Source: Taiwanofungus camphoratus (lineage: Eukaryota; Basidiomycota; Agaricomycetes; Polyporales; Taiwanofungaceae). From it: a DNA stretch of 64,000 nucleotides. This document shows, piece after piece, positions 1,237 through 31,012 of the stretch. The DNA lies in the NCBI GenBank assembly GCA_003999685.1, contig CP021232.1, positions 248,001 to 312,000 on the forward strand. The letters are read 5' to 3'. How positions within the stretch are numbered: the stretch's first letter is position 1; each line of letters begins with the position of its first letter. The position numbers and the translations under genes are program-made. The notes beneath the pieces were generated by a model, which saw only the letters and a program-made list of their open reading frames with translations, had not been told where the DNA came from and searched no databases.

Positions 1237-1279
1237 ATCCAGTTCACTCCCTTCAAACGAACTACCACCTGCTCGCAAC

Positions 1280-4332: not shown

Positions 4333-4420
4333 GGCGAAAGGAGATGGGTTTGACAATGGGAGGAAGCTTGAGTTGGCACTGACCGACGGTGTCAAATGGT
4401 TGCAAAAAATCGTGGCAGTG

Positions 4421-4455
4421 TCATGTGATCATTGTGTGTGATCGGGATCACATGA
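4421..4455. promoter_or_regulatory. Palindromic element in a divergent promoter
   Basis: A perfect 10-bp inverted repeat, TCATGTGATC (4421-4430) and GATCACATGA (4446-4455), is separated by 15 bp. It lies between the start codons of two divergent genes (4332 minus, 4558 plus). The half-sites contain CATGTG/CACATG, an E-box-like CANNTG core, so a dimeric bHLH-type regulator is possible. This is inferred from symmetry and position only. Confidence 0.45.
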
Positions 4456-4557
4456 TACAAAACTCGTGCTGCAGGCCTGACTCCTCATGTTCAATCCCAG
4501 AGTTGGATCTTCATACATCTTTAGCCTTCACCACTCATCTCTCCAAGTGAATATAAC

Positions 4558-6752: not shown

Positions 6753-6926
6753 CTGTATCTACATTCCTGTTCTCAAACTCTTTGTATATCTGAACATGGG
6801 TCTAATTTATGGTACATGTCAAGACTTCACCCAACATTGAGCCCTTCATTTAGAAATCACATTACAGTTAGGAATGGCTAGTGCAAGGGGCAGGGGGCAT
6901 TGCTGAAAGAAGGAAGGCCTGGCAAA

Positions 6927-7294
6927 CCCATTGCAACAGGATAGTACCATCCCTGGCTGACCAGTTACAAGGGGATGGTACCCTCACTGGCTGACCTGTT
7001 GCAACAGCCTGGTGTCCTGCCTGGCTGACCCATTGCAACGGGTGGGTCTCATCCCTGGCTGACCCATTGCAACAGGCAGGTCCCATTGCCGGCCGACCCA
7101 TTGCAACGGGTGGGTCTCATCCCCAGCCAACCCGTTGCAATGGGCAGGTCCTATCACTGGCTGACCCGTTGCAATGGGAATACATTCACACCCAGCCCAC
7201 CCATTGCAACGGGGCTTGTTTCAATGGTCGGCCGACATTGGACGGCCCGTTCACAATGGGCCAAACTCAGCGTTTATTGGCCCGTTGCAACAGG
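6927..7294. repeat. 34-bp minisatellite with palindromic core
   Basis: A 14-bp palindrome-like core, CCCRTTGCAAYGGG, recurs at 6927, 6961, 6995, 7029, 7063, 7097, 7131 and 7165 at exactly 34-bp spacing. Further copies are at 7200, 7246 and 7281 with spacing 35-46. Spacers resemble GGGTCTCATCCCTGGCTGA. It lies just downstream of the gene ending at 6752. Short ORFs across it are repeat shadows. Confidence 0.9.
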
Positions 7295-7325
7295 GTTTTT
7301 CACTGGATGGGCTCAATATCCTCTC

Positions 7326-9727
7326 ATGTGACTGGCTTCACCACTCCAATATCATTTGATCAGTTACAACTCACCACTTGATGCACTCAATAGTGCTACA
7401 ATAGCAGTATTTGCCTTAGACTAGTCCACGTATGTTGCTTTGTCTCAACCCTTCTAGTGATGTCAGTACTGTAGTCCCTTTCTCTATGAGCCACTCAGTA
7501 GATCCTAGCTCACAAGTAGTTTAGGATGCCACTCATACTATGCCACTCCTGATACACCTTACATTATTTGTACAGTAGTATAAACATAATGTATGGTGTC
7601 ATGAAATAAAAAGTTCCTTTCCCCCATTCTGCAGAGCTCAAGAAGAGCACTTTGACTAAGTCTTTTACTATGTTCTACTGTGTTCTATCCATCTTCGATT
7701 ATGTTCAAAGAGTTGCGTTATCTTCCACCTTCTACAGTTCTTGAAGGGTTGCATTCTTGTCCACCTTCAACTCCATCAAAGGGTTGCATTTTAGTCTGTC
7801 TTTGACTTCTGTCAAAGAGTTGCATTCTTGTACCACAGTTTTGCATCCACCTTTGACATCTGTTGAAGGGTTGCATTCAGTATCCCTTCTCTAGCCCCGT
7901 TGATGAGTCCCATAGTCTCCTGGGCTCCAAATTGTGACTTTAGGAGCTTCCTAATCCCCTCACAGGCCAGTCTACAATTTCCCTAGGACCCACAACATTT
8001 AGGATACTTTCCTCAGACTCTCCTAACACCTCCTTCGCATCCTAAACACTTCTAACCACTTACAAAGTCTATGAAGGTGCATGAAGTCCTACAAAGTCAT
8101 ATGAAGTCATTCAAAGTACTCTGAAGCTTCTAAATCTAGCTACAAAGTCTCTAACCTTTGCTAATTCCACTATCAGACACTTCCAGCCCTCCTATACTGT
8201 CCTATCTGGTCCAGGCCACACCTCTTACATCACCTATTGCCATCCTAACTTAGTATCTTAGCTAAGTCCCTCTAATCTCTGCTGTGGCTGTATATACCTC
8301 CAATAGTCTCCAAAACAGTTCGAAGTTCTGCAGCCTAGACTTAGGCAGCCTCATGCATTCTCTGGGTCTCAATCTCACATCACAAGGACCTTCTATGATA
8401 TGCCCATATGATCCCCTACCCTTTTAGGACACCTCCTACCCCAGTTTGACAAAGTCCTGCTGGTAGAAACTTCATATGTCTTTAGTTCACCATGATAGCT
8501 GATCACTATGCATGTCTATCTCCTGATAATCATCCTGCCCTTATGTCTGGTCTTGGAAACATTTATACCATACACAGTTCCCCTGTTTCACTTCCTAAAC
8601 AGTTTATATCTCCTCATGCTTGCTCTGAAGTTCACGCACTTTTAGTAGACATTTCGGACTTTTCAATTCCACTTCACATAAGATAGTTCATCTCACCTTC
8701 TCCTATTTAGTCAGATGTACCCTACTATGTACGACAGAGACCCCTTGATACATGCTACTCCCCTCCTGAGAATACTAGTCCCTCTACAGCTATGATCTCA
8801 TAGCTCACTGAGAATAGAAGCTTTAGGAACCTTTCTAAGCTTCTAAGTCCCTCACCTATGCTCTGTCTCAGCTCATATAACTATGACTACACCTGTGATA
8901 ACTCCTACAACTATGCCTACACTCTCAAACTACGTCCTACAATCTACGAAGTTGCTGTGACTTCATATACTACACATATTCAACCAGCTCCCCTATCTGG
9001 TGTGCCTCCACCTTAGTTATACCCTAAAGGCTCACGTTGCATCATTACTACGTTCCACTATGTCCTATCCCTCACCCTATGATCTCTGATTCCATCCCTA
9101 TTCCCCTGCTACGCTTCTAAAACCTTCAAAACATGTACTATTTTTAGCAGCTCCATCATCATCCATTGTAACTTTATAATCTTCTACAACAGCCTATAAG
9201 CCCCCTATATCTCATTCAAGTCCTTCAGTATACACCCTATCTCCTTCCTATTTTCCCTATTTCATTCTATGAACATCAGAAGTCCTACAAAGTTTAGCTA
9301 ATTTTGGCTAGCTTGTGAGGACTTAGGAAGCCTTCCTGTCCATTTTGTTACCCTTTGTGCTCCATCTCACTTCCTCACACACCCTTCCATGCCATCTATC
9401 TCATCTCTATGCCCCTATCCTCTCACTAAGTCCTTCTACTGACCTCACACCACATTGCAGAACCTCAAAGCACTTTGGACCACTTCACAAGACTTCATAG
9501 GTCTTTGAAGGACTTTGTACCCTTTAGGGACCCTTAGCATGCAGGAGTAAGTTCCTGAAGAGCAAGACCCTTGGCCCCTTACCACCTTAATCAATTACAA
9601 CAAGACATACAGGCTACTCAGTACCACACAGTGCTCCTTACTCCTACAGCTATATACCACATCTCACTCACTGACCAGCCATTGCGGAGCACTCTCTAAG
9701 TACCAGGGTTACCTAGATCATATCACC
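7326..9727. repeat. Long non-coding dispersed repeat, copy A
   Basis: There are no credible genes in this 2.4-kb stretch. Its left part (7326-7900) matches 14786-15360 and its right part (about 8645-9727) matches 28381-31012, so it is one copy of a dispersed repeat. The left part contains a degenerate 40-50-bp tandem motif ending GAAGGGTTGCAT (7680-7890). The right end reads CTAGATCATATCA. Read on the minus strand it begins TGATATGATCTAG and has a TATATAGC box about 80 bases in, which would suit an LTR. No internal protein-coding part is seen, so it may be a long solo LTR or a non-autonomous LTR element. Confidence 0.6.
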
Positions 9728-11698: not shown

Positions 11699-14528
11699 TG
11701 TCTAGGCTGGAGGTGGTCGCTGTGCATGTTGCAATTGATTGGCTGGGTTCTGGTCTGATGCTGAGGTGGTTTGTCCTTTTATACTGTTCCAGGAGCTCTG
11801 GAGCATGGCACAGATCCTCCTCCCTTTGCCATGTGTTGGTGGAAGCTGGCCACCCCTTCCATTTGATGAGGAACTCCCACTTCCCATGGTGGGCATGATG
11901 CCTGCAGATGCCTTTGACTTCATATTCTTCTTCCCCTTGGACCAGGTCTAGTGGGGGCCTGATAAAGTTTGGTCCATGTTCCACTGTTTCTCTGTATGAG
12001 GTGAGCAAGGATGTGTGGAACACCGGGTGTATTTTCCAGGTTCTCAGGAGCTGTAGCTTGTAAGTCAGGGGCCCCTTGACTTCGATGATCCTAAATGGCC
12101 TGAGTCATTTGGGGTTGAACTTCTGACTTATTGTCTTTAGGTGGAGGTTTGTGGCTTCTAGCCAAACCTTGTCGTTCTTCTGGAACAGTTTCCAGAGGAA
12201 GGGGGTCCTGTCCTCCATCAGCTTCTGCACCAGTTCTTGTGCCACAAGGGCCTCCTTGTGGGATTTGGAGATTTGAGTCAGGTGGTCCCAAAGTGTGGGG
12301 TACTTTTCTGAGGGCCAGGGGGACCTGATGGCCTTCGGGTTGTATTCCATGATCAGCTTGAATGGGGAGTCCTTCCTTCCAGTGTGTGACACCTGGTTGT
12401 GTGTGAATTTGAACTTTGGGATGTGTCAGACCCACATGTGGGGATCATTTGCACACAGGATCCTCCAGGCTGCTTCCAGCTCCTGATTGACCCACTCCGT
12501 GCTTCCATCAGACTGGGGGTGATAAGCTGTGGACATCGCCACTTTGACTCCAGTCAGCTTACACCATTCTTGGAATGCGGTGGCCACAAACTGTGGTCCC
12601 CAGTCTGATATCATCCTGTCAGGTAAGCTGTACCGTCTGTATATGTTGAGGTGGAGGGCCTCTGCTGTCCTGACAGCATCTATGTTCTTAGTGTATGGCA
12701 TGAGTATGATACCCTTGGTGAGCTTTCTGTTGACCACCACCATGAGTGTGTCATACCCTTGCGACTCTGGCAAGTCAGTGATGAAGTTGACTGATATGTG
12801 TGAGAATGGTCAGGAGTTTGGTTCTGTTGGAATGGCCATTAGTGGGGGGTTTGTTGGGTGAGTGTTGATCTTGTTTTCTTAACATTTGACGCATCCCTCA
12901 ATGTATTTCTCAATGAACATGGTCATCCTGTACCAGAACCAATCCCTTCTGGCGATGGCGAGAGTGCCCTGGGCCCCAGGGTGTGCCATGGCAGATGTGT
13001 CATGGCAGAGTTGGATGACTTCTTGGTGCAGATCATCATCAGAAGGTATGTAGACTCGGTTTTTGTACAAAATCAATCCTTCCTGAATGTCCCAATCCAC
13101 CAGTTTTGTGTGTGCAAATCCTGTGCCCTTGAATGGCAGTATCTTCCCCTGTTTTAAGGTATCAATCATCTCAATGACCATCTTATCATGGCTGCAACAT
13201 TCACATATCTTTTCAATAATGGCTGTGTTAGTGGCATTGAGGAACAGGTCATTGGGGAGGAGGATGACATTCTCATTGTCATGTTCACCCCCTGGGTGGT
13301 CTGGTCGTTGGGACAGGGCATCAGCGACTATAAGTTGGCTGCCCTTTTTATTGAGCAGTTGGATGTTGAACAGGGATAGGAACAACTGTCAGCAAGCCTG
13401 CCGGCAGTTCAATCATTGGGCCTCTCAGAAGTAGGTTAGATTCTTGTGGTTGATGATCACTGTGGTAGTATGTCTGCTGCCCTCGAGGTGGTGGTGCCAC
13501 TCCTCAAGTGCTCGTACAATGGCCAGGAGTTCTCTATCATAAATCTGATAGTTTTGTTCTGCCTCCTTCAGACTCTTTGAAAGGAAGGTGATGGGATGGA
13601 GCCTCCCCTCATCATCAGATTGCTGCAGGACTGCTCTGGTTGCCACAAGCAAGGCATCTGCTTCTATGGTGAATGGTTTGGAGGGGTCTGGCATGCAGAG
13701 GATGGGCATGCTGGAGAAACACCGCTTGAGCTCCTTGAAGGCATTTTCACAAGCAGGTGTCCAGTTCCATTTGGCACACGTCTTCTTTATCACATTCAAT
13801 GGGTGCACAATGTGGGAGAAATTGTATATGAAGCGTCAATAGTAGTTGGCGAGTCCCATGAATCATTTGATGTCCTTTACCCTGGTGGGGTGAGGCCAGT
13901 CTGCTATCCCATTCAATTTGTCCTTGTCCATGTGCACCTGTCCAGGTGAGATTGTCATTCTCAAGAAGTCTACTTTGACAACATCAAAAGCACATTTTTC
14001 CAGTTTTACAAATAGGTCGAGTTTCTGTAGCTGCTGTAGGACCTGCCGCATCCAGTCTTGGTGCACCTCTGTGTCATCTGAGAAGATGAGGATGTTGTCC
14101 ATGTAGATTGCTATCCATCCTTTGGCCAGCATGTCTTGGAAACCATTGTTCATCATGCATTGGAAGGTGGCAGGGGCATTGCACATTCCAAAGAACATGA
14201 TGGTGGGCTTGACAAGTTTGTCCTTGTTGCTATGTTTTACCATGAATGCTCCCTTCCATTGGTCGCCTTCCCTGATCCTGATGTTGTTGTATCCATTTCG
14301 AAGATCCAGCTTGGTGGACACTGTGGCCTTTTGGAGTCGATCAATAAGTTCCCCTATCAGAGGTAAAGGGTAGGCATCCTTGACTGTGGCATTGTTCAAG
14401 TACCAGTAATCTTGGCATGGATGCAGTGTCCCATCCTTCTTCTTTACGAAGAAGGCAGGCAATGTCATGGGGGAGTTCAATTCTCTTAGGTACCCTTTCA
14501 CCAAGTTCTCCATTATGAATTTGTCCAT

Positions 14529-14785
14529 CTCAGCCTGTTCTTTTATGGTGATAGGTGCCAGGCCCTTCTAGGCCCTGTGAAGCACCCTCACTTGACCCTA
14601 GGACCTTAGTCATGTCTTTAATGCCACTTGACATGTCCAATACAGCCTGAAAAGCCACCATGAGACTCTCCAATAGCTTTGAATCACGCCACAGCCACTC
14701 TGCCAGTTCTGGTCTGATGTTCCAGTGTACCATTCCTTCTACGCACAATATGCCACACACAATTGCCACTCAAGGTCCTCGCATG
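14529..14785. other. Unassigned spacer upstream of the minus gypsy RT
   Basis: The stretch contains a 79-codon minus-strand open frame (14530-14769) with no recognisable domain. It may be a remnant of the gypsy element or unrelated sequence. Confidence 0.3.
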
Positions 14786-15360
14786 TGACTGGTCACACCA
14801 CTTCAATATTGCTCAATCAGCTTTGATGTGCCACTTGATGCACTCGATAACACTATGGCCCCAGGTTTTGTCTTAGTCTATTTCATGTACATTCCTTTGT
14901 TTCAGCCTTTCTAGTGACGTCAAGTACAGTAGCCACTCCCTCTATGAGCCACTCCATAGTTCATAGTACGCAAGTAGTTAGGATGCCACTCGTACTACAC
15001 CACTCCTGATGCACCTTACATTGTAGTACAGTAGTATAAACATGATGTACGGTGTCTTGGAACAACAGAGAAGTTTTCCCCCATCCTGCAGAGCTCAAGA
15101 AGAGCCCCTTCGATTCAGTCTTCTACTGTGTTCTACTGCATCTCTCCATCTTCAATTACGTTTGAAGAGTTGCACCTACTATTCACCTTCTACAGTATCT
15201 TGAAGGGTTGCATCTAGTCTGTCTTTGACATTCATTGAAGGGTTGCGTTTTAGTCCATCTTCAACATCCATTGAAGGGTTGCGCTAGCATCTTGTCTCTA
15301 ACCCAAGTCCGCCTTCTACAGTAGTTGAAGGGTTGCATATCAGCTAAGTCCTCACATTTA
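14786..15360. repeat. Long dispersed repeat, copy B (left part)
   Basis: Matches 7326-7900 in the same orientation, starting at CATGTGACTGG. It includes the CACTTGATGCACTC segment and several GAAGGGTTGCAT-type tandem units (15130-15350). Homology fades near 15360. The 230 bp from there to 15590 holds no gene and leads into the Gag ORF at 15591, so part of this interval could be the 5' leader or LTR of the plus-strand gypsy element. Confidence 0.6.
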
Positions 15361-16330
15361 GTCTCTCCTTAGTACAGTACAGCATAGTAGCGCATTGAAG
15401 CTACGTTGAGCAGTTGTGACACACGTTGTAGGTCATCAAAGACCTTTGTAGATGTCTCTCGACCAATTTGAGATTGGGAACCCTTTGCTGCTGACTCTCC
15501 CCTTGCACATTAACAGTTCTATAGCCTTCCAGCTTCTCTAGGTCATACCCAGTTGGGGTTGGAGTGTTATAGTGCTTTCTGGAGCCCACCATGAGGGGAT
15601 TTCAGGCAAGGAATCTGCTGCTATCAGATTCGCCAAAGACATCTCCAGTATTCACCTGCTCACAAGCGTGTGAGGCTGCCAGTCATAGTGCAAGCAAAAA
15701 CCTCAACAACAGTTCTACCACCCTTTCTACAACTCCCAACACCTTCAACCACGTGAAAGAAGACCTCATAGATCACGAGCTAGAGTTTCCTTCAACCTCC
15801 GATGAACGTACTTCATCTTCTGAGCTTCTAGGGCTATCTACACCAGAAGTCAACTTCTCATCCCCTGATCCCTACAAACAGTCTGGTTCATCACCTGAAC
15901 CAGAGGACCCAGTAGAATCGACATTGCATACCACTATCCCAACTACTACGACTCTACCCTCATCCCAGCAGACTGTTACTCCATACATTCTTCCCAGTTC
16001 TTCGAACCACCCCACATCAGCCACCATTAATCCCCCTACTCCTAAAGTTACAATGAATCAAAATGCAGCACCTATGCTGTTCATGCCCTCTCAAGGCCAT
16101 TCAACAGCCCCCATCTTCAACCTGACAGAAGTCCAATCACTTTGACATTACTTCCAGGACATCAAAGTCTTATTCACCCAGTGCAGAATTGTCAATGATG
16201 CAGAAAAGAAGTCACGGGCCATTCATTACCCCTCGATCAACATCGCAGACCTATGGGAGTCCCTTGAATCCTTTTCTGATCAGACCAAGACATATGCCCA
16301 GTGGAAAGCTGATGTCCTAGCACTCTACCC

Positions 16331-19300
16331 TAGTGTTGCCACGGCTCGGCTAGTCGCAAACTGACTACCACAAGCCGCGACTTTCTCATATCACGGCTTG
16401 ACTATGACTTGGCAAGTCGCAGCTTGTGATTGGCTCGACTACAAGCCACGACTCAAAGTCGACTCTAGTCAATGTGTGGGACTAAACCATCTCTGATATA
16501 TTCAGTTATATTGATATATATACTACATATAAGAATCTACAATGGATAACAATTACTTCACCTAGGATGCAATGTGATGTCTCTAATACAAACATAACCA
16601 AAACATCAGGAAAAATGCAGGTAACTATGTAGCTGGATGTGCTACATCCCCAATCTATAGCACTGTATAGTGCTACAGATTTGGTTGTAGTTGCCGTAGC
16701 ATCAGGAGCTACCCTGATTTTTCCTAATGAACAAAGGATGTCTCATAGTGAATAAATGCACAGATCATGCAGCCCTCGCGCCAGCCTTCCAGCTTAATGG
16801 AGGTGGAGGAGGGCAGCGTGGGCCCTCCAATGGCAGGCCCATGGGCACCGTCCATGTTCGTGGTCTTGGACCAGACCGTCCATGAGGCTGGCCGCCCGTC
16901 TGACCAGTCGGCTCGCTGTACGCACTACACGAGCCTCACCAGCTGTGCACACCCGCACCGAGCTCGCTCCCAGCGACACTCCCGGCATACATCGAGCACA
17001 CGCTGTTTGGGAACATCATGCTTCCGCCCCACCTGCCCTGCATGCCCATCCCCATCCCCATGCTGCCCATGCCACTCATCGTGCTCATCGCGCCTCTGCC
17101 ACCGCCGAGGATGCTTGTCGCCGTGGTCGAGCCGCGCTCCCATCCCGGGTGTACCGGCCTGGGGTGACTGCCAGGCCATGGGCAATGGAGGCATCATGTT
17201 TGGGGCGTCGGGCATGCCCATCATGGGCGGGGGCATATTGTCAGGCGGACGGTCCTCCTCATTGTCATCATCATCAGTGATGGGGCCATGGCCGTTGACA
17301 ATCTTCCCAAGCTGCAGAACGGGCTAGAAGGTCAGTACACAAGGATCGCTGTGCGTACAGAGGGCGTGCACACCTCAAGAGCAGCCTTTGTCTTGCTGCG
17401 CCTGCACTCCTTCCTCCGCATCTCCTCTGCCTCCGCCTCAGTCATCGCGGCACGCTCCTCTCTCTCCCTGTCAAGCTCTCTCTCCCAGCCCACACACCCC
17501 CTGTCCCTGTCCCTGCTTCTGTCCAGCTCACTCCCGTCCACCAGCATGACTGGCGTGTGCCCACTGCTCGACTCGCCCGTCAAGCTTGCAGGGCTGCCGG
17601 CTGCGCAGGTGCCGTGAGTGAGAGCGACGATGCGGAGGACGATGTCACGCCCGATCTGGATCCCGAGCCTGAGCCCGGGCCCACATTGGCCTGGCGCGCA
17701 GGGCTGCCCGTGCGCCTGAGCAGCCACGCGAACGGGCGGAGCGCCTGTGGTTGGTCCTCGCGTGGGGTGTCTGACGCCTGGCTCGCTGTCACGGAGTGGT
17801 GGCACGCGGCGCGCAGTGTGGGCGCAGGCGGGCTGCTTGGTGTCGTGGGGTTCCCCGCAGTGCTGGTGAGGAGCCCACTGCCCATGAAGCCCTTTGAGGG
17901 GGGCATGCTGCCGTCGGGGATGAGCGGCTGCCTGCCCGCCCGTGCGGTCGCAGAGGGCAGAGTTGGTGGTGAGGGTGGGGGCTGAGAAGGGGAGTGCACG
18001 GTGGACTGCTGCACTTGCTGCTGCTGCTGTTGCGGCGAGTGCCCCTGCACGCCAGCGAACTGCGTGTGCGATGCGAGCCCGAGCTGCGACGTGGGGTGCA
18101 AGGTGACGCTGAATGCAGGTGGGGGCGAGCACTCACGGATCGGCATGGGCACGATCGGCACGGGGTCCGAGAGAACCTTGACGCCCTCGCCCGCGAGCGC
18201 GCCGGCGTCCGGTGTCGAGAGTGAGCGGCCGTTCAGCTTCTGCGTGGCTGTCAGCGATGGCGGCATGGGGGGTGATGCTGAGGCGGGCGACGCGGGCGGG
18301 GTGGGCGATGCAGGCACAATTGCGGACATGAACGATGCAGGCGACGTGGACAGCAGGAGGAGTGTGTCCGCGGGCGCAGTCTGGCTGCGTGTGGGCAGCT
18401 TGCACGCACCGCTGTCCCTGTTGTCATCCTCATGCACGCCCTGGGGCTTATGCAGTGTGTCCCCAGAGCCCGTGCGTGCTGCGGTGGGGGGTCAAGCCCG
18501 TGATGTCAATCAGCGGCTGTGCAGGCACGTGTGTGCGCAAGCCCGCTGTTGCACTCGACGCAGCGCTCCCAGGGTGCCGCAGCTGCACAAGCCGTGAGAG
18601 CAGTGCATCGTCCGAGTCTTCGTTCAGATCCGAGGAGTCATTGTCCGAGGAACTCGTCGCGCTGTCCTTGTTCTTGGCGTGGCCTTGTGAGCACTGGAGC
18701 AGGTCCGTGGCGGAGCCTGTGGGAGGGTGTGAGTGCATGCTCGACAAGGACGCAAACAGGCAAGGCGAGGGGGAAAGAAGCAGAAGACCGGAGGCTCACC
18801 TGATGCACCCTTGTTTGCAGCAGCCAGCATCGACACGCGCTTGGCCACAGCACTCAGCATCAGTGTGGACGTCAACACCGATGCCCGCGCATGGCTGTAT
18901 ATGCTGTCGCGCCCCCCGCTTCCGTTCGACTGCGCCGAGCTCGACAGAGTCATGCGCACCGGGGCCTGCATGGGCGATGGGCGTGCACGGTGCCCGAGCT
19001 CCGAGCATGCCTTTGCAGCGGACCATGGTGTGATCGTGCTGTTGCGCCTCGGGCCCAGCGTCAACAACCCTGCTGAGTCTTCAGAGTCCGAGTCCGAGTC
19101 CGAGTCTAGCTCAGAAGACATCGGGTGTGTCGATGCCGCCATGTGACGGTGCCCAGTTCTACGTGGGGGCGTGTGGGTGGGCAGGCGAGGTGCAGGCGGG
19201 GACGTGCACACGGGCCGGCCGAAGGGGGATCGCCAGGTCCGCCAAGGACGGCGACGGCGAGTTCACAGCACTGCGCCATGCTGCCATCTCCTGGAACGCA

Positions 19301-20066
19301 GCCACTGAGATCCGCTGTGGCGAGTCTGGCGGTGATGTGGACGTGGACGCAAAGCTGCCTGCATGGGGGCAAGCACCAGGCGGGGCGAGGCTGCTCGCTG
19401 AGACACCAGACAGCGCTGAGGATGGGCGGAGCAGCAGCGGCTTGGGGGGCTCAGGGGAGGTGGGACGGACGTGGTGGAAGGCACGCAGGTTGAATGCCCC
19501 ATCGGGCGGGGGAGCCAGCACAGGCGTAGGTGGGAGTGGGGGCAACAGCTTGCTCTTCTTGCAGTGGAGCGGGCTGCAGGGTCAGTGTAGGCGGCGAACA
19601 GATGCGCCTTGGACGGTGGGGGGCCAAGCAAGTCATGGCCCAAGTTGAAGCGGGCGCTGCTGGGGTAGCATGGGGGGGTCTGTTGCAGCGTGGGGCACAT
19701 GGAGGAATGCCAGGTCACCGTTGGAGGGCGAGGAGGGCTTTTTGGGGCAGAAGGTGAGCAGGAGCTTGCTGGAGGAGGCAGCTGCAGCAGTAGAGCTGCT
19801 GCTGTAGACTGAGTTGTGGATGGCCTTGTGTTTTGACCACCAAAGATGTGTAACCACAGCGGTACAGTACCTGGACAGCAAGCACGTAGAGAGCATCACG
19901 TGATCTTGACCCTACCAGCTACAGCCGACTGCAAAGTCATGGCTACAACTTTAGTTGATGCAGGCAGAGCCGGTTATTGGCATAGCCGAAACAAGCCGAG
20001 TCGCTGAAAGTCGCAGCTCAGCTTCCGGCTACCAGCTGGCTTTGAGCTGAAGCCGCAGCAACACTA
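16331..20066. mobile_element. hAT-like DNA transposon carrying host gene sequence (Pack-type)
   Basis: The 3736-bp element has terminal inverted repeats: the left end TAGTGTTGCCACGGCT matches the right end (complement TAGTGTTGCTGCGGCT) at 14 of 16 positions. It is flanked by a perfect 8-bp target duplication, CTCTACCC (16323-16330 and 20067-20074), which lies in the Gag gene of the surrounding gypsy element. Subterminal regions repeat motifs such as AAGCCGCGACTTT and AAGTCGCAGCTT. The 8-bp duplication and end structure suit the hAT superfamily. No transposase is seen inside; the interior (about 16770-19830) is GC-rich host-like coding sequence. It was presumably moved by a transposase made elsewhere. 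Confidence 0.88.
16770..19830 (-). pseudogene. Captured host gene fragments (Ser/Pro-rich protein) inside the hAT-like element
   Basis: On the minus strand the interior encodes pieces of a Ser/Pro-rich, low-complexity protein of the kind common in Agaricomycetes. The pieces include FLHVPHAATDPP (near 19700), a region with DGAFNLRAFHHVRP and RISVAAFQEMAAWRSAVNSP (19159-19545), a DSDSDSEDSAGLLTLGPRRN tract (near 19085), an uninterrupted 285-codon frame (17580-18437) with a Gln run, a charged REREERAAMTEAEAEEMRRKE segment (near 17430) and a Met/Gly/Pro-rich end (16925-17236). Frames change between pieces and stops occur, so it is decayed or contains unspliced introns. Base composition differs sharply from the flanking gypsy sequence, which fits capture. 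The parent gene is not in this window. Confidence 0.6.
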
Positions 20067-20585
20067 CTCTACCCAGGAACTGACAACACTAGAAAATGGT
20101 CCCTCACAGACATGGACCAGCTGATTGGAGAACGTGCACACATTGGAATCCACAATGCCGCAGACCTCGGAAGCTACTATTGTGACTTTGTATCCATCAC
20201 GAAGCACCTAATCATGCAACAATGGCTCTCCGACATCGAACAAAGTCGAGCGTTCCTATGAGGGTTCCAGCCTTCTCTACTCACGTGACTCAAGGCCTGA
20301 CTTCACCTGAAGCATCCTGACCACTATCCTGATGACCCCTATCCACTTTCCGATATTCATGCAGCAGCCACGTTCATTCTACATGGTACTTCAAATATGC
20401 TGACAGTTGCAGCACCACAGCCAGCAGCTTTGACAACTACTCTGCCTGGCATGATCAAGACAGAAGACATCTTGACAATCATTGAGAGCTTATCAAAGAC
20501 TATTGCGACCCTTATCCAGCCAAGTAGTAGCAAGTCAAATGTAGCTGCTAGGCTTCCATCAACCCAAGGTGGTGCAAAACAAACC

Positions 20586-21068
20586 TGTTACTGGGGTGTA
20601 TCCGTTCATGTGCTGCTTAATAGTGGGACTATACACAGCTGGGTGACGAGGAGGAGCACTTAGCGATGACAAGTCACTTGTTCCTCAGGTGTCTTCAACC
20701 ACAAGCCCTATGTGGCCTTGAAGGGTTGCGGGCTTCTTGCGATACGAGATAATGAGTAAAGCAAGGTATTTTGAGTACAAAGGCATAGTACTCTATGGTA
20801 TGAACAAAGAGGATAAAGCTGGAGACCCTCCATCGTCTGAGAGTCATATATATACTACTGCTACCGCCCCCCAGGCACTACTGTCATGACCCTGGGGACA
20901 GCGTAAAGAGAGAAAGGTAAGCGGCCTGCATGAGTAACTACAAATGGCATAAGCGGAGACAGTCGGCCCATCGGACAGATGGTGGGTGAGTAACTGGAAG
21001 TGAGCTGCACATCCATGATGTAAAGTAAGAAAAGTAAATACGTCCGTTGTCCCTACCAGCCGGTAACA
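20586..21068 (-). repeat. Solo LTR nested in the plus-strand gypsy element
   Basis: The 483-bp sequence is bounded by TGTTACTGG...CCGGTAACA and flanked by the perfect 5-bp target duplication AAACC (20581-20585 and 21069-21073). It sits directly before the nucleocapsid knuckle of the host element. It is the same family as the LTR at 10310-10803, whose element reads on the minus strand. No internal part is left, as expected after LTR-LTR recombination. Confidence 0.93.
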
Positions 21069-21683
21069 AAACCTGCCACTTTTGCAGCGACCAGAACCAC
21101 AGCATTCAAAGCTGCCCACACATAGAAGCAGACATAGTCACCGGGAAATGCAAGCGCAACACCAAAGGAAAGGTGGTACTGCCAAACAGTCTATTCATCC
21201 CATGTAGTATTCCTGGCATTACGATCCATGACCACCTCTATGAGTGGATTCGTCGCAACACACCAGCAGCACCTGGTCTGCTCTATGAGATTGACAAGCA
21301 AGCCAGAGTCCAGACCCTCACGCTCAACATAGAAGGTAGAATCAAAGCGCTCAAAAGGGAGCTCCTACAGCTTTGAAAGCATAGGAAAGTCTTCAATGGT
21401 GTTGAGATCTTACAACACAAGAAACCTACTACGACAGTGCCGCAGACCACAGAGGTCTCCAATATGACCCCTGTCTCATGCAGTACCAACAACCCAGCAC
21501 CTGACACAGCCAAGTCAGCCACTCCTAGCACAGTCCCAGTCCCAGTGATCCCAGCCAAACCTTCGACAAGCACCGCCACACCTTTGATGATTCCCGCAGC
21601 TATAGTTCCCCCACCCGCTTCATCGAACATACCTTTGACACAGCCCACCACCATGTCTACTCCATCAGCGCCCCCAGTTCACC

Positions 21684-22063
21684 TAGTGTTGCCACAGCTT
21701 AGCTGCAGCTAAAAACAGAAATGTTTATAGCTGTATTGATCTAGAAGCTTAGAATATAAAACTAACATGCAATTATAATATTTTTTACCTGAGAAGTCCA
21801 TTGGTAACATCCTCATATCATAACTCTCAATAATTCTTTCACAATATGAGAATTTTGTGTATGACTAGTCAGCTTATCTGACTTGACAATCAGCTAAATT
21901 CAGATATCTCAAGAACTTTTGCAGCTATTAACATGATTGTTGGCTCAAAATGAAGCTATAAATAAGGGCTATTAAACATAGCAACATGTGTTCAGGTATA
22001 TCATAAGCTGCACAAGCTAGAGACAACATTCTGAAATGAGCAGCTAAAGCTGTAGCAACACTA
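21684..22063. mobile_element. hAT-like MITE, same end family as 16331-20066
   Basis: The 380-bp AT-rich non-coding element has ends TAGTGTTGCCACAGCTTAGC and (complement) TAGTGTTGCTACAGCTTTAG. It is flanked by near-identical 8-bp duplications, AGTTCACC (21676-21683) and AGTCCACC (22064-22071). The shared TAGTGTTGC terminus and 8-bp duplication link it to the 3.7-kb gene-carrying element, so both probably answered to one transposase. Confidence 0.88.
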
Positions 22064-22966
22064 AGTCCACCCCTTCACAAATGCTCAAGACATGACCTAC
22101 GCTCTGCCGAACCTTTGAAACTTCGCTATGCTGCCCAAGTTTTCAAACAACAAGGGCAAGGACCCTGCGTACAAGACCATAGTTCCCATACACCAGCCTA
22201 AGATAGCCAACAAAATCTTCACATGCTCAATGAGGTCCCCTCTCATCACATTAATGCCAGAAGAACTCCTTTTGATCTCACCCAACGTACACAATAGGTA
22301 TCGAGAAGCAGTTACACCCAAGTGAGTCTCAGCAGAACCTGTCACTTCAGCACACATTGTAGAAATCACCAACAAAGATGAAGCGAAAGAGGTACACCAA
22401 CTATCTTGCTCAGGTGCAGCGCTACAGCTCAGAGCTACTATCATACCTGACCCCTACAAAACTTATCTCAAGCACGTCCCGCATGGTGAACATCCCGCTG
22501 ATCTCACGGTTGCCCACAACTCGAACACTATCTGCTTGATCTACGCTCTCATTGACAATAAAGAGCAGATTGAATGCATCGTAGATCCAGGTTCACAAAT
22601 CGTAGAAATGTCAGAGGAAGTCTGTTTAGGCCTGAAGCTCCTCTTTGACCCTACAATACAGTTAAACATGCAGTCCGCCAACGGTGAAGTAGATCGATCT
22701 CTAGGGCTCGTACGCAACGTACCCTTCCAGATTGGTGAGGTAGTATTATATCTTCAGGCTCACATCATTTGAAATGCAGCATACGACATTCTTCTCAAAT
22801 GACCCTTTGACGTCCTTACGCAAAGCATTGTAAAGAACTTCGTGAATGAAGAACAAACCATCACAATAGTATGTCCCAACTCCAGTGAAACCCTCACAAT
22901 TCCTATGTATCCGCATGGAAAACCACGCTTTTGACCGCAACATCATAGAAGCTGTCCGCATGCGGG

Positions 22967-23592
22967 TGTTACAAGGCAATACAGGTGTGGGCGTACATTT
23001 CATTTTCTCTCTACTTCGTGGACTAGCGGGTCATGTACACTTACAATTACCACCACCTTTCCAGACGGGCTGTCTGTCCCCGCTTAGTTATGGACCGTTA
23101 CTCAGAGGGGGCCATTTGGGCCTCTGACTCAGGGACACTTAGTAGGTACTGGTATCTGTGGAGCGAGGGCCGACTTGCCCTAAACCACCGTAGTACTTAA
23201 GGGGGTTGGCTCACTGCGGAGTACCCCAATCTTGTCCTCCTTTTGTTACACCCTGGTAACCGTTCTGTTACCCTGTTTCTTACCTAGTTATTCAGGGTTA
23301 CACTTTGGTAGCCTTAGTCGCACTACGTACTCGGACACCGTCGTTGTCCTTGTACTTTGTATATACCTTTGCTTATTCAACGGGTCTTCTCAGACCATCT
23401 ATCTCCTTGTGACTACACTCGGACTTAGACGACGTGACATAGCCCGCAACTCTCTCGAGACCGTTGGGTTAGCGGTTGAAGACTTAGGTGTATACTTGTC
23501 ATCAGCCAGGCTGACTCCTCGCATACACGCTTGACTACTCAACGACTTACCGTCACTAGTAGTCGCTTACGGGCGTAGACACCCCCGTAACA
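22967..23592. repeat. Second solo LTR nested in the plus-strand gypsy element
   Basis: The 626-bp sequence runs from TGTTACAAGG to CCCCGTAACA, has TG...CA ends and is flanked by the perfect 5-bp duplication GCGGG (22962-22966 and 23593-23597). It differs from the 20586-21068 LTR family. A TATATA-containing stretch near 23358 suggests plus-strand orientation. It interrupts the region between protease and reverse transcriptase. Confidence 0.88.
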
Positions 23593-26500
23593 GCGGGTTT
23601 TCACGCTTCGAGGATTTGATACCCCATCATCAAGGAGGAGCAGCCCTAGTCATCGACTATGATGGGGCAAAATCTAGTATTTCTTTTGTCACTCCGATTA
23701 ATTCTTCGATTTCCGCAGTCCAGTCTCTTTACCTCTCTGCTTGTTCATCAGTTGCCTCACAGTTACAGTCTCTCTATACCACAGACGCAAAAGCATCCAG
23801 TACGGCCACGTCGAATGCTTCGATGTGGGCTTTGACACTTCTATTTTCAGCCCCCCTCGCTTTGCTTCCTACTCCATCCTCTTTGAACTCTTTGACTCAC
23901 GCTTTCGACCTCTCAGCTTTTTAATTCCATTCTTCCAACATCTTCTACTTTGACTCATGAAACCTACGCAGCTACTAAGAAAAAGTACAAGCCAGTCATG
24001 CTCAAGACTTGTCCCATTCTAGGAGTGGTCCCAAAGCAGTTTCAAATAGTTCAAGACATCAAGGGTGACCCCCTATCCATTATGCCAGTACTCTCAACCA
24101 ACCCCCCACCCTTCGAACCTACTGGCCATTATATGCATGAACGCTTTGACATCACAGAGAAGCTTCATGACAGCAACTTTCTACTCCCCGATGAGCATCG
24201 AGTCCTCCATCACTTCATGTGCTTGCACAATGAAGCCTTCGCATGGACCAACGAAGAAAGGGGATGCTTCAAACCAGAATACTTCCCTCCCGTATATTTC
24301 CCTGTCATACTGCACACTCCCTGGGTGCAGAAGAATATCCCCATTCCACCCAGGATCTACAATCAAGTCTGCACAGTGATCAAGCAAAAGATCGACGCAG
24401 GAGTCTATGAGCCTTTGAACTTGTCGTATTGATTGTGCTGGTTCTGCGTAGTAAAGAAAGACGGGAAATCTCTTTGACTCGTACACTCCCTCGAGCCCCT
24501 TAATGCAGTTACTATACAGCACTCCAGCATACCACCTATGCCAGAATATCTCACAGAACAGTTTGAAGGAAGATTGTGTGGCAGCATGCTCGACCTCTAC
24601 GTAGGCTACGATGAACAACTCATCATGGAGTCTTTGAGAGACCTTACAACGTTCCAAACTCCCTACAGTGCCATGTGACTTGTCACCCTTCCGATGGGTT
24701 GGACAAACTCAGTCCCTATATTCCACAATGACATCACATACATTCTACAACCCAAAATCCCGCACTCTACAGTCCCCTACATCAACAACGTTCCCATCAA
24801 AGGCCCCGCATCTGACTACAATGATGAGTGGCTGCCTTTGAACTCTGGAATTCGAAGATTCATGTGGAACACTTTGAAAATTTGAATCAAATAGTCACTC
24901 AAATGCGATATGCAGGAGGAACCTTCTCTGGCATAAAGAGCATTCTCATCTCGTGTGAAATCATGGTCATAGGACACTGGTGTACTCTGGAAGGATGGTT
25001 ACCCAACAACTCTCAAGTCTCAGCAATACGCAACTGGGGCCCCTGTGCTATGCTCTCCGATATTTGAGCATTCCTAGACACCATCGGAGTCGTTCAAATA
25101 TTCATACACAACTTCACCCATCATGCCGATGCCCTTGTACATCTTACGAGGAAGGATGTAGAGTTCGAATTCGGTCCTGAGCAAATCACAGCACAAGAGG
25201 ACCTCAAGGATGCTCTACTCTCATCCCTCACACTACATGCTATCAACTACGATTCCCCATCCCCTGTAATCCTCACAGTCAACACTTCGTTCATCACAGT
25301 CGGGTACCATCTTTGCCAGTGCGATGAAGCCAACACTCGAGTTTGCTACTATAACAGATTTGGCTCTATCACATTGAACGATCATGAGTGAAGGTTCTCT
25401 CAACTGAAGCTTGAGATCTACAGTCTATTCCGTGCCCTTCGATCCCTTTGACTTTATCTTATCGGCGTTTGAAACCTCATCATAGAAGTCAATGCTTGCT
25501 ATATCAAAGGCATGCTCAAGAACCCAGATATCGCCCCCAGTGCAAGTATCAATCGCTGGATAGTAGCCATCCTCACATTCCACTTCACGATAGTACATGT
25601 CCCTGGTACAATGCATGGCCCCAATGGTCTCTCTCAATGTACGCCACAGTCAGGTGACACTGTCATAGAAGAAATCAATGAAGACTTCAACGACTGGATT
25701 GATCACATGCACTCCTTTGTCCATCAGATACTACCTCCCCCTCCTGCCCCTACGATGTCCATTCTAACCAATGCAGAAGCTGAGGACGGCTCCAATTTCA
25801 AAAAGGAAGAGGATAGCTACAAAATCATTCCACATTCAGAGCAAGTACAGCTTGCAGATGCAAGACTCGATGAGGTCCTTGAGTTTCATCAAACACTTTC
25901 AAAGCCAGAAGGCATTTCGGACGGTGAATACAAAGGGTTTCTCAAGTACTGCATGCTGTTCTTCCTGGATAATGACACTCTATAGTGAAAAGACAGCCAT
26001 GGCACACACAAGTTGGTCGTCAAGCCTGGTGATCGACTCTGAATCCTTTGAGAATGTCATGACCGCACCACTCATTGAGGCATCTATGTGATGAAAGTCT
26101 TCATCAACGAACAATTTTGGTGGCTGTTCCACTATGCAGATATAGCATGGTTTGTTTGAACATGCCATCTATGTCAGTCTCGTCAAGTTCAGCAGATTCT
26201 TATTCCCCCTACTGTCGCAATGCCCACTCCTATCTTTGCCAAGATACATATTGATATGATGCATATGCCCACGTCTGGCAGATACAAGTATCTCGTACAA
26301 GGAAGATGCTCCCTCATGATGTACCCCAAGTTTTGAATGCTTCAAAAAGAAACAGCCTCAGCACTCACTGACTGGATCTTCAAAGACATCCTCTGTTGAT
26401 GGGGCACCCTCAGCGAGATCATTACAGACAACGGTGCAGTGTTTATCAAGGTGGCAGACTATCTTTCAAAGAAGTACCACATCAACCACATTCAAATTAG

Positions 26501-27230
26501 CAGCTACAACTCAAGAGCAAATGGACTCGTTGAATGACCGCACTTCAGCATGAGACAAGCTTTGTTCAAAACTGCCAACAGAGACAAGAAGAAATGGTCT
26601 CACATGGCTTACTTTGTGTTTTGGTCCAAATGCATTACGACTCGATGATGCATGGGTTGCTCACCATACTTTGCAGTCATGGGCACCCATCCTCTCATCC
26701 CTCTCAACATTGTCAAAGCTATTTATCTTCAACCCCCTCCTACTTCAATTCTTTCTATGACCAATCTCATCGCACAAAGAGCAATTGCGCTTCAGAAACA
26801 TGTAGAACAAGTAGCTGAACTCAAATCGAAGGTCTACGAAGCCCATCAAACAGTGGCACTTCACTTTGAAAAGGAGCACAAGCACTCGATCAAGGACTTC
26901 AATTTCAAATGTGGAGACTTAGTGCTCATACGAAACACAAAGATCGAGAAGTCCCTGAATAGCAAGATGTGCCCCCGCTACCTAGGCCCCCTCATTGTTG
27001 TCTTGTGCAACAAGGGCAGCACATACATTGTCTGCAAACTGGACAGCACAGTCCTCAACAGGCCCATCACAGCATTCCAAGTCATTTCCTACTTCGCTCG
27101 ACAATCCATCCCCATCCCAGACAACCTAGAAGATGTCTCAATGGAGCATCTTCGAAAACTTGAACGATCCAATTCGCTTGGTGACAACGACAACGACATC
27201 CTTGAAGATGTTGAAGAAAGCAATCACTAG

Positions 27231-27511
27231 AAGCCCCTGTCCCTCTACTTGTACTACTATGATGCATACTTTCTACAGTCTCTTTTCTCTTACGATATGC
27301 TTAATTTCATCTCTTTTTCTATTGATCTAGTGTCATTTTACTTGTACCATACACAATTCAACTTGACTAAGTCATGATATCACTTTGACGTTCTATGAAC
27401 ACTTCGATTCAAACATTGTGTGGAGGCTCACTTTCTACGAGTCCTCCTAGGCAGTGATGACAAACTGAGCCTACCAGCATTTTGTTACATGGCGGTACTG
27501 GTGTGGACATA
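27231..27511. other. Spacer between gypsy pol end and Tc1 element
   Basis: No gene is seen. A GTGTGGAGGCTC stretch (about 27418-27430) might be the polypurine tract and start of the 3' LTR region of the gypsy element, but no matching 5' LTR was found, so this is unproven. Confidence 0.3.
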
Positions 27512-28380
27512 CAGTGACTCACAAAACTGTTGCAATGTTTGTCACTTTCTGACTGTTTGACCTATATCTCAGCAACCAGATATGCGATAGCTTCAAATGT
27601 TGGACCATTAGAAAGCCCTACATCATGGCTTTCCAATGTGATATCTATCATAAAAAAACAGACAAGTATATGTGAGATTATCTATCATTCTTTTAGAGAG
27701 TTCATTGCAATAGTTTTGTTGCTAGCATAATATGGAATAGAAAATACAAATTATTAGTACTTAGTATATCCTCCTTTTGCCTTTATCACAGCCTCTACCC
27801 TCCTAGGCATACTTTCTATCAAATTTTGACACACAGAAGCATCAATTGCATCCCATTCCTTCTCCACACGCTCCCAAAGCTCCAAAATCCCACTTGAAGG
27901 CTTTTCATACCCTGCAAGCCTTGTTTTCAAGTGTTGCCAAAGGTGCTCAATAGGATTGAGGTCAGGAGACTGAGCTGGCCATACCATGACATTAAAATCA
28001 TGGTCCTGAAACCACCTTTTAGCCTTTTTGCTAGTGTGCTTGGGGTTGTTATCTTGCTGGAAGATGACATCTTGAGGGGTTAGACCATAGTAAGTGATCC
28101 TTGAAGTTCATCCTCCAAGATGCTGACATAAAGGTCTGCATCCATCCTCCCATCAATCTTGCATGCCAATCCAACTCCTTCCCAAGTCATACAGCCTCAT
28201 ACCATGACACTCTCTTCACCAAACTTGACTGTTCCCTCCACCAGCCTGGCACTAAGACCCTCTCCTGGCTTTTTTCATGCCCATTTCCTTTCATCTGACC
28301 TCAGGTGATTGATTTTGGTCTCATCAGACCATATAACCTTCTTCCAATCATCCACAGTCCAGTGCTAATGACTCACAGCA
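27512..28380 (-). mobile_element. Truncated Tc1/mariner transposon (DD34E)
   Basis: On the minus strand the C-terminal two thirds of a Tc1 transposase is recognisable. It has the first Asp in WSDETKI (near 28320), the second Asp in IFQQDNNPKHTSK (near 28050), and the final Asn/Glu region SPDLNPIEHLW (near 27965) with exactly 34 residues between D and E. The last 77 codons are open (27754-27987). Stops after RKW and elsewhere, and one frameshift just before the second Asp, make it inactive. The 3' end at 27512 (CAGTGACTCACAAAACTG) follows a TA target. The 5' end, including the DNA-binding domain and left inverted repeat, is missing; the sequence switches to the long repeat at about 28380. Confidence 0.88.
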
Positions 28381-31012
28381 GACTTTTAGATACCACTTCA
28401 CATAAGATAGTTGATCTCATCTTCTCCTATTTAGCCAGATGTACTTCACTGTATATGAGAGAGACCCCTCAGTACATGCTACTCCCCGCTTGAGAATACT
28501 AGTTCTCCTACAGCTACAATCTCATAGCACACTAAGAATAGGGCCTTAGGAACCCTTTTAAGCCTCTAAGTCTTCAACCTAAGCTTCATCTCAGCTCATC
28601 TAACTACATCTACATCTGCAATAACACTTATGATTACACCTACACCCTTGAACTACACGCTACAATCCCCAAAGTCAGCAAGACTTCACACCCTGTGCAT
28701 ACTTCTCTAACTCCTCTATCTGGTGGGCCTCTGCCTTGGTTATACTCTAAAAGGCTCACATTGTGTTATTATCATGTCCTACTACATCTTATCCTCCATC
28801 CTATAATCTCCAATCCTGTCCCTATCATCTGGCTATGCTCCTAAACCCTTTAAACTATGTACAACATTTGGCTGATCCCTCATCATCCATTGCAACCTTG
28901 TACCTCTCTAAGGCAGTTTATACATTGCCTAGATCACACTCTAGCACTTCAGTATATTCCCTATCCCCTTTTTATACTCCCTATTCTGTTCTAAAATCAT
29001 CTAAAGTCCTACAAAGTTTAGCTAACTCCAGCTGACTTATGAGAATTTAGGAAGCCTCCCAGACAACTTTGCTACCTTTCATACTCCTTCTCATTTCCTT
29101 ACATATCATACCTTACCTCCTATCCCATCCCTACACCTCTAGCTTCCTTCTAAGTTCTTCTAAAAAACTTTGTACTTCATTGTAGAGCCTTGCAGCACTT
29201 CAGACCACTTCACGAGGCTTCACAGGTCTTTGAAGAACTTCAGACCCTTTTAGAAACCCTTAGCATGCAGGAGCAAGATCCTGAAAAGCAAGATCTTGGC
29301 CTTTTACTTCCTCAACCTATCAAAACAAGAGACATACAGGGTACTATACAGGCAGTTGCTTCCTTCTCCCATAGCTAGATAGTGTGCCTCACTCACTGTT
29401 ATACTGTTGCAGTGATATGACCTAGAGAGTCCTGAAGGGAGAACCTAGAGAGTAGGTCCGATGCATCTGAAAATAGAAGAGGTAGTATGATGGGAGGACT
29501 AAGGGGGAATACTAGAGGGAAGAGTGAGCAAAAGGACAATGGAGAAATCACCTAGACCACAATCAGGGGCCTAGAAGTCTTGTGTGTGCAAGAGAGTAAG
29601 GGGCCAATGAATCCTGCATGACAGGATCTTGTGCCAAGGTGTGAACAGTCCCAAAAAGGTAGGAACATAGTCTTCTAATCCTAAGGCAGCGAGCTGGTGG
29701 AATACCAGCCAAGTGCAAAGGAGTTGAAGGAAACTGAGGGTGAAACCGATAATAAACCAAAAACCAATGAATAACTGAAAACTGATATACTCAGGGGAGG
29801 GGCTGCAAATGGGGGATGCTGGTGGAGGGATGGAGCAAGGATCTGATATAGGTGATGACTAGCTGGATGAACTAAGCACAATGCATGCCTATAGGGTATA
29901 ATGAGGGCAGAGGCATGCCAGATGAGAGGGGAAGGGGGCTGCTGGATACTCAGACCAAAGTCACTCTGACTTCGAGAGTATAGGATGTAGGGGATGTAGG
30001 TATGCTGCAATATAAAATGTAGTACTGGCTGCTGGCTGAGAATATGCATAGAGATGATAGGAAAGAACCTTGTCAGACTGTTGAAAGACCTTAAAGCAGG
30101 GGAAACCCAAATCTGAACTCTGGAGGACAAGTCTGTAGATTCTGAGAGGCAAGACAGGAGCACATATCTTACTTTCCATCTGATAGGTACAGGAGACTAC
30201 ATAAAGGGCTTACAGTGTCAAAGTGTCTTATGCAAAATAAAACCAAAGAAACCAAAAACAAACAGAAAATTATAAAGTCTAGAAATTGATCAGTGTACCA
30301 TATGGAGAACTAAACCTAAGGGGGAAATGAAACAGTGACTCTGAATGTGGTAGAGAGGTTACTGAGGGATTGCACAAGAGAAGGAATGCTTATCTGGAGA
30401 TCATCACTAGGAAAAACAGACTACTTAGCAACACTTGAAAGAAAAAAGGGATCTGACAGCACTGGACAATCAAGCCAATGTGTAGGAGATCTAGGCAATG
30501 TGAGGGGACCATGTGTGCATCAAGGGCAAGAGGATGGGACTCCAGACCAAGAGACCAATAACCAAAACCAAGAACCAAAGACCGAAAACTGAAGGACTCC
30601 TGCTCAGCTTCTCTTGATCAAAGGTCTAGACTCATGGAGCATCAAGAGGGATGCTAGGAGAGACTGCTGGCATGTATTCTAGAATGTGAGAGACCACTCT
30701 CTTACAGTGGGGCTTCCAGAGTATCATGCAAGACTTCTATTATCAGAAATCCCATTGTTCTTCCTGGATAGGAAGACTGGATGGCCAGGGTATGGTCAGA
30801 CATATGTAGCACACCTGTCTGCCAAATGAGGTCATCTTCCAGGGATGGAGTGAGATTCTCAGTTCTTGTTATGACATTCAGTCCTCTGATGCTTGCCAGT
30901 ACAGCTGAGAAGTGTGCTGGAGACCAAAAGTATGTGATTTTGGGGCACAGAGGCATACTGGACCTATCAGCAGAGCACTCCCTAGGTACCAGGGTTATCT
31001 AGATCATATCAG
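28381..31012. repeat. Long dispersed repeat, copy C, split by an insertion
   Basis: Segments 28381-29412 and 30970-31012 are homologous to about 8645-9727 of copy A, in the same orientation. Shared features include CCACTTCACATAAGATAG near the left and CTAGATCATATCA at the right end. The interval 29413-30969 has no counterpart in copy A. Short ORFs here have no recognisable domains. Confidence 0.7.
29413..30969. repeat. LTR-like insertion in copy C
   Basis: The 1557-bp block is absent from copy A. It begins TGATATGACC, ends ACCTATCA (TGATA...TATCA) and is flanked by GCAG on both sides (29409-29412 and 30970-30973). This fits an LTR or LTR-bounded non-autonomous element with a 4-bp target duplication. 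No internal repeat pair or coding capacity is seen. Confidence 0.5.

Follow-up and report, generated by a model that had tools for sequence, protein, structure and literature searches.

A hAT transposon carrying a captured host gene in Taiwanofungus camphoratus, and its giant gene-carrying relatives

The element and its insertion site

The window, by which we mean the whole 64,000-nucleotide stretch of DNA analyzed here, lies on a contig of Taiwanofungus camphoratus (CP021232.1, denoted C13 below) and contains a short element with terminal inverted repeats (TIRs) that is inserted into repetitive DNA:

16323-16330, no strand: CTCTACCC, left copy of the 8-bp target duplication, single copy in the empty sites
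16331-20066, plus strand: non-autonomous Pack-type hAT element of 3,736 bp, defined by its TIRs, target duplication and empty sites
16331-16464, plus strand: left terminal region, 134 bp, matching the left end of the autonomous 23-kb elements at 79% identity
19912-20066, minus strand: right terminal region, 155 bp, matching the right end of these 23-kb elements at 79% identity
20067-20074, no strand: CTCTACCC, right copy of the 8-bp target duplication

The original prediction had placed an element with inverted ends and a perfect 8-bp duplication at 16331-20066, and these coordinates proved exact. The inverted ends are formed by TAGTGTTGC at 16331-16339 (plus strand) and 20058-20066 (minus strand), with 88% complementarity across the first 16 bp of the termini. 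Between random pairs of window positions a perfect 8-bp match arises at a rate of 5e-5 (200,000 draws), and CTCTACCC itself occurs seven times within the window versus 1.6 times expected. Note that the TAGTGTTGC 9-mer, with at most one mismatch, is found at chance frequency (14 matches versus 14.1 expected), and the case for an element is therefore built on the TIR pair, the duplication and the empty sites taken together.

The surrounding sequence is a high-copy repeat, for which 40 matches were listed including the window's own. A query for empty sites was assembled from 250 bp of each flank joined with one copy of the duplication, and five of the 39 other listed copies were compared with it. 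All five aligned with zero gaps over the junction, four of them over approximately the full 500 bp and one reaching position 349. The predicted jump into a repeat was thus borne out, while the name of retrotransposon given to that repeat is unconfirmed, as Pfam returned no match in the plus-strand frames scanned and no direct repeat of at least 100 bp that could represent an LTR pair was detected within 12000-30000. A single reverse-transcriptase match nearby (Pfam, 13863-14567) lies on the opposite strand. CCHC-like and protease-like stretches were also noted in the repeat, as judged by eye.

The GC content of the element amounts to 63-66% in its three inner 1-kb bins versus 45-49% in the surrounding bins, the contrast that had been described. 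Its lack of a transposase was likewise confirmed, in that tblastn with the transposase of the 23-kb family (E 1e-3) found no match in the window; a search of contig C13 for the hAT dimerization domain also remained without a match. An open minus-strand frame is indeed present, although its length is not the 285 codons claimed: the longest such frame spans 303 codons from stop to stop (17580-18491), and Pfam found no match in it.

The captured gene and its parent

The interior of the element was captured from a host locus elsewhere, as had been proposed, and the parent is a gene on contig C1 of the same genome. This gene has an open frame of 1,377 codons that is divided into three exons by two introns (92 and 50 bp), and its protein showed no domain in Pfam. 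The following remnants of it were assigned within the element:

16563-19825, minus strand: captured host DNA, colinear with deletions relative to approximately C1:3958130-3962365 (locus L010, approximately 2630-6865); end points approximate
16604-16729, no strand: nested short repeat of 126 bp within the 3' flank of the cargo, missing in the C1 parent, with many genomic copies elsewhere
16768-17323, minus strand: exon 3 remnant with deletions relative to C1; limits by eye
17324-17373, minus strand: intron 2, retained, GT...AG, 50 bp in element and C1
17374-18716, minus strand: exon 2 remnant with deletions, containing the 303-codon frame at 17580-18491
18717-18799, minus strand: intron 1, retained, GT...AG, 83 bp versus 92 bp in C1
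18800-19825, minus strand: exon 1 remnant without the parent's first approximately 42 codons; limit by eye

The cargo aligns with the parent in colinear pieces of 72-88% identity that cover roughly 3.1 of 4.2 kb, with several internal deletions, and the captured span begins at about codon 42 and ends approximately 75 bp downstream of the stop codon. The comparison of introns that the original prediction had called for found both of them at the same places in cargo and parent, and their retention identifies the captured material as genomic DNA rather than a transcript. The capture of a spliced transcript does have a precedent in Pseudocercospora fijiensis (PMC6710886, as far as the consulted part of that report goes), but both introns and the 3' flank are present in the element, and in a giant relative described below the alignment of Brr2-derived cargo to the Brr2 gene extends over 3,629 bp and has zero gaps. 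We reject this explanation, whose probability we regard as negligible.

The direction of transfer was assessed from CpG decay. Of 674 CpG positions in C1, 161 (67+94) read TpG or CpA in the element, versus 17 (6+11) of 324 in the reverse comparison, which marks the element copy as the decayed one. A TIR pair was not found in the 9.5 kb examined around the parent gene, where three sites match the first ten bases of the TIR with at most two mismatches, versus 5.9 expected. These data bear on the possibility that the interior is native to a transposon lineage and that the C1 gene is its domesticated, immobilized derivative. The recurrence of the same sequence in TIR-bounded elements (on C13, on C6 and in a pair on C9) speaks for such an origin, but the C1 gene has an open frame, extends further 5' and is free of TIRs, CpG was lost in the direction from C1 to the elements, and a giant relative on C2 lacks the C1-gene sequence and has the ends alone in common with the window element. 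A parent thus exists and the interior is foreign to the autonomous lineage, and on the evidence of this one genome we reject the domestication reading as very improbable.

The frames of the cargo are broken and the 303-codon frame is a leftover; the cargo is a non-working gene. Judged from its sequence, it is passenger DNA that could possibly serve as raw material for chimeric transcripts or small RNA. The right-hand part of the cargo (alignment A5) shows 137 transversions relative to C1 in 1,414 aligned columns, so many that the present-day C1 gene was not the exact donor and a diverged allele or paralogue is needed.

Pack-TYPE (Pack-hAT) elements are recognized by TIRs with the duplication proper to the superfamily, by the absence of a transposase inside, and by captured DNA whose source is a host coding gene present elsewhere. 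All three features were found in the window element, which is an ordinary Pack-hAT member in an unusual group of organisms.

Relatives in the same genome

A search for other elements with the same TIRs, suggested by the original prediction, led to relatives on C6, C9 (a pair), C5, C2, C3, C4 and C11. The genome was scanned with the 16-bp TIR, allowing two mismatches, and 30 of the 37 matches were taken up as loci; the reversed control pattern gave 19. Pairs were sought with exact 9-bp ends and up to two mismatches in the duplication, a setting that misses damaged elements, and several single TIR matches (e.g. C4:2301117) stayed outside the pairing. The control count, together with the frequency at which the 9-mer alone is expected, would agree with unrelated segments lying between chance TIR-like words that never transposed. 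Against this stand perfect 8-bp duplications in all seven independent elements that carry genes and whose two ends are known (C13, C6, C5, C2, C3, C4 and C11) and in the C9 pair, as well as empty sites that align gap-free at the junction for the elements on C13, C3, C4 and C6. We therefore discard an explanation by chance, which we hold to be exceedingly improbable.

Among the smaller relatives, the one on C6 (C6:662379-666786, 4,408 bp, perfect duplication TTCTGAAG) has ends that are 97% and 90% identical to those of the window element. Its empty site aligns at 95% identity with no gap at the junction and two gap columns, the nearer 11 bp off. It contains two versions of the C1 gene, of which one is 89-93% like C1, whereas the second shares 89% identity with the window cargo and only 80% with C1; these differently aged versions are best read as two uptake events of the same gene. 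For its middle 1.3 kb, only fragments of 78-80% identity were found as a source. The pair on C9 comprises elements of 3,507 bp and 4,301 bp that have the perfect duplication GCTGGAGT and the flanks in common and thus represent one insertion, later duplicated along with its surroundings. The C1-gene copy in this pair retains 8 CpG in 725 aligned columns versus 260 in 755 for C1, and pieces similar to C3:488732-490547 and C1:4136097-4136432 are present as well. At C5:1959040 a left end is present, and a right end was not found in the 5.5 kb examined. A further locus, C5:1693045-1704386, spans 11.3 kb with the perfect duplication GTCAGAGA, has no transposase and is a deletion derivative of the following giant elements:

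C2:3102789-3126248: giant element of 23,460 bp, perfect duplication GACCACAG
C4:2064149-2087603: giant element of 23,455 bp, perfect duplication TCCCTACG
C3:2081299-2112503: giant element of 31,205 bp, perfect duplication TACCAGGG
C11:1198912-1228471: giant element of 29,560 bp, perfect duplication GAGTGATC

All four giants combine the perfect 8-bp duplication with a short TIR of 16 bp, as is typical of hAT elements, and their 1,516-bp ends are 99.5-99.9% identical among themselves. The C3 giant is longer because approximately 7.7 kb interrupt its transposase gene, and the C11 giant because approximately 6.1 kb interrupt a cargo piece derived from the FAS gene. Empty sites, in the form of other repeat copies to which the joined flanks align, were identified for the giants on C3 (89% identity, no gap), C4 (94% identity, one gap column 99 bp off the junction) and, weakly, C11 (68% identity, no gap at the junction); none was found for the C2 giant among the sequences compared. 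The TIR of the window element agrees with that of the giants in the first 9 bp and differs at one of 16 positions at each end, and its similarity to the C2 giant is confined to the ends.

The transposase gene of the C2 giant is open over 852 codons in 10 exons, with GT..AG introns of 49-64 bp and no stop; exon ends were placed by eye, for this copy only. The protein contains the hAT dimerization domain (1.1e-16) and resembles Hermes transposase (2.7e-8), with the SER motif aligned. The 23-kb relatives accordingly show the transposase expected of hAT elements, with its dimerization domain, which is the statistical match, and its putative DDE residues; the D, D and E were assigned by eye. Over the 3,171 bp of the transposase locus (L015), identity amounts to 99.8% for the C11 copy and 99.5% for the C4 copy, and the C3 copy is the interrupted one.

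Host DNA from five loci makes up approximately 18.3 kb (union), or about 78%, of the 23,460 bp of the C2 giant, mostly at 95-98% identity with the parents. The individual pieces, in coordinates of the C2 element, are:

339-4161: FAS locus (C6), 95.4%
4154-7782: Brr2 locus (C10), 97.1%, no indels in 3,629 bp
7783-8395: FAS locus (C6), 98.2%
8390-8668: FAS locus (C6), 89.3%
8676-8806: FAS locus (C6), 80.0%
13070-19482: C9:917707-924113 (6.4 kb), 96.3%
19484-19536: FKS1 (beta-glucan synthase) locus (C13), 84.9%
19669-22720: FKS1 locus (C13), 96.1%
22717-22834: FKS1 locus (C13), 97.5%
22869-23117: C1:4136, 81.6%

The names FAS, Brr2/SNRNP200 and FKS1 are backed by Pfam, which found no domain in the C9-derived open reading frames. 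The fused frame of FAS and the shortness of the introns agree with a basidiomycete host. One strand carries the FAS, Brr2, FKS1 and transposase frames. The approximately 18 kb of host-gene DNA are present in four copies at 98-100% identity and in part of a fifth. The FAS pieces keep the order of the parent locus, with deletions in between, and the Brr2 piece sits where approximately 516 bp of FAS are missing, an arrangement that fits repeated repair inside an earlier capture.

Origin of the cargo and comparison with known systems

The divergence between giant cargo and resident parents was counted over 2,069 codons in eight coding stretches chosen by known protein sequence, and comprises 146 synonymous and 62 nonsynonymous differences without a stop. 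The resulting omega is 0.126 (bootstrap 0.094-0.171), with values of 0.08-0.14 in six stretches; two FKS1 stretches, in which changes are few, reach 0.34 and 0.56, and the value of 0.56 is based on 3 changes. An earlier count in raw frames gave 0.11-0.39 per frame, with a few stops that stem from introns and wrong frames. Uncorrected synonymous divergence from the resident genes is approximately 0.02-0.30 by stretch. Under free drift, with an assumed spectrum of 85% transitions and a CpG weight of 4, 62 nonsynonymous differences would be paired with at most about 64 synonymous ones, and the 146 found therefore indicate that most of the divergence arose while both sequences were constrained. 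This leaves two readings, a different allele as the donor or selection on the cargo.

Selection on gene fragments expressed as proteins would account for the predominance of synonymous differences and the lack of stops, and some single domains are whole (the FAS acyl carrier, the helicase PWI domain and FKS1 domain 2). The cargo nevertheless consists of truncated pieces of the FAS, Brr2 and FKS1 genes, and capture from a diverged allele is the simpler explanation of this pattern. Moreover, identity to the parent is patchy along a single contiguous capture, with values between 84 and 100% in the 200-bp bins of the C9 stretch, which speaks for recombining haplotypes within one species rather than for a distant donor. 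We consider selection on the cargo unlikely, and the donors of the giant cargo were probably diverged alleles.

For the window element, we are highly confident in its interpretation as a non-autonomous hAT transposon with a captured C1 gene that moved into a high-copy repeat, probably mobilized in trans. A hAT element would have taken up most of the C1 gene, introns and 3' flank included, as genomic DNA, and would then have entered the repeat by a transposition that duplicates 8 bp. The capture itself may have proceeded through a repair process that copied host DNA into a gap or break within the element, a route that we infer, given that clean microhomology was seen at only one of the five giant junctions looked at (CATG, 4 bp). 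The 852-codon transposase of the 23-kb elements would probably be the source of mobilization in trans, although termini that are only 79% identical make the role of exactly this enzyme tentative. The family takes up host DNA repeatedly, as follows from the pieces of five loci in the C2 giant and the two C1-gene versions in the C6 relative.

More tentatively, the 23-kb elements may be the hAT equivalent, in a fungus, of giant transposons with gene cargo, namely autonomous elements that collect long segments of essential genes and move them between nuclei, so that the cargo records the alleles of another lineage or species. We regard this as possible but rather doubtful; if true, the synonymous divergence of the cargo would have been gained before capture. 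The giants' cargo may in any case preserve alleles of other haplotypes, and its approximately 18 kb of repeated host-gene DNA offer a ready source of chimeric genes and ectopic recombination, and of possible silencing signals against FAS, Brr2 and FKS1.

The capture of genes by cut-and-paste elements is known mostly from plants. According to the portion of PMC8903248 consulted, plant Pack-TYPE and Pack-hAT elements are, like the window element, TIR-bounded, free of transposase and flanked by the duplication proper to their superfamily, and contain captured gene DNA; here, in contrast, the host is a fungus, the capture comprises most of a gene with introns, and autonomous relatives carry cargo as well. 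Hatvine-6 of grapevine likewise combines a common hAT transposase and TIRs with variable captured genic DNA including introns, but is a plant element of 'variable' length with a 9-bp duplication, and the available sections of PMC2528002 describe no giant multi-gene copies. Fungal hAT elements have captured histone H3 in two ascomycete lineages, Pyrenophora tritici-repentis (PMC3538342) and Pseudocercospora fijiensis (PMC6710886). From the accessible text of both reports, they resemble the present family in the capture of a housekeeping gene and in occurring as longer and shorter versions (5.6 kb and 2.3 kb; approximately 9.5 kb), and differ in their ascomycete hosts and in holding one small gene, as an intronless copy in P. 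fijiensis, whereas genomic DNA with introns, five loci and 23.5 kb are found here. In basidiomycetes, the excerpted description of TET+ hAT7 from rust fungi (PMC12730594) likewise presents a hAT with a captured gene, but with a 7-bp duplication and one dioxygenase gene.

The 8-bp duplication and the hAT transposase argue against membership of the giants in the Starship group, whose hallmark is a captain of the DUF3435 tyrosine-recombinase type. Starship cargo is mostly whole genes, whereas the cargo of the giants is gene pieces. Starships are large fungal elements with cargo genes, as are the giants, but the parts consulted of PMC12506042 and, for a basidiomycete case, PMC13066641 ascribe to them a tyrosine-recombinase captain instead of a hAT transposase. 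ToxhAT, or ToxTA, a gene-carrying fungal element of 14 kb formerly called a hAT, has a 2-bp TA duplication and was reclassified as Tc1/Mariner (PMC12506042, in the same parts), unlike the elements described here with their 8-bp duplication and hAT transposase.

In the literature outside subscription papers we found no report of a transposase-bearing hAT element of more than 20 kb consisting mainly of host gene DNA, and the whole word 'hAT' was not found in a review of giant transposons (PMC6431247). Within that literature it is thus the size and content of the giants that are new, hAT gene capture being already known in ascomycetes and plants. The upper end for hAT elements is quoted as 7.1 kb in the consulted part of PMC6710886; the C2 giant is about three times as long and well above the 9.5-kb histone elements. 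With parents, small Pack-type elements, a deletion derivative, giants and empty sites all in one genome, the mechanism of capture becomes directly amenable to study.

Giant hAT elements and divergence of their cargo

Giant hAT elements with housekeeping-gene cargo lie on four contigs of the genome:

C2:3102789-3126248, giant hAT with housekeeping-gene cargo
C3:2081299-2112503, giant hAT with housekeeping-gene cargo
C4:2064149-2087603, giant hAT with housekeeping-gene cargo
C11:1198912-1228471, giant hAT with housekeeping-gene cargo

As evidenced by comparison with the resident parent genes on C6, C10 and C13, the differences in this cargo are mainly synonymous, with a nonsynonymous to synonymous ratio (omega) of 0.13. 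This divergence is too constrained for the cargo to be a copy that left the resident alleles and then drifted freely.

Relatives on contigs C9 and C6

The two C9 loci that hold relatives of the window element, C9:1278000-1286000 and C9:1194500-1202500, constitute a segmental duplication that carries one gene-capturing element, which is CpG-depleted. For the 1.3 kb middle of the C6 element (3165-4480 of its locus, L009) no clear parent was found in the same genome.

Surroundings of the window element

A Pfam reverse transcriptase domain (PF00078, 2.7e-24) lies in a minus-strand frame at 13863-14567, on the strand opposite to the frames surrounding the window element. The region from 36 to 42 kb has a GC content of 67-78%, and its GC-rich stretch at 39306-41942 contains a low-complexity plus-strand frame of 878 codons and numerous short tandem repeats.

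Within the element itself, a 126-bp repeat is found at 16604-16729, with at least 34 further copies of 88-98% identity among the matches listed. A second hAT-type insertion, a 380-bp MITE at 21684-22063, is located 1.6 kb past the element, with ends TAGTGTTGC and duplication AGTTCACC/AGTCCACC; the scan of loci revealed similar copies of 385-387 bp on C9 and C13.
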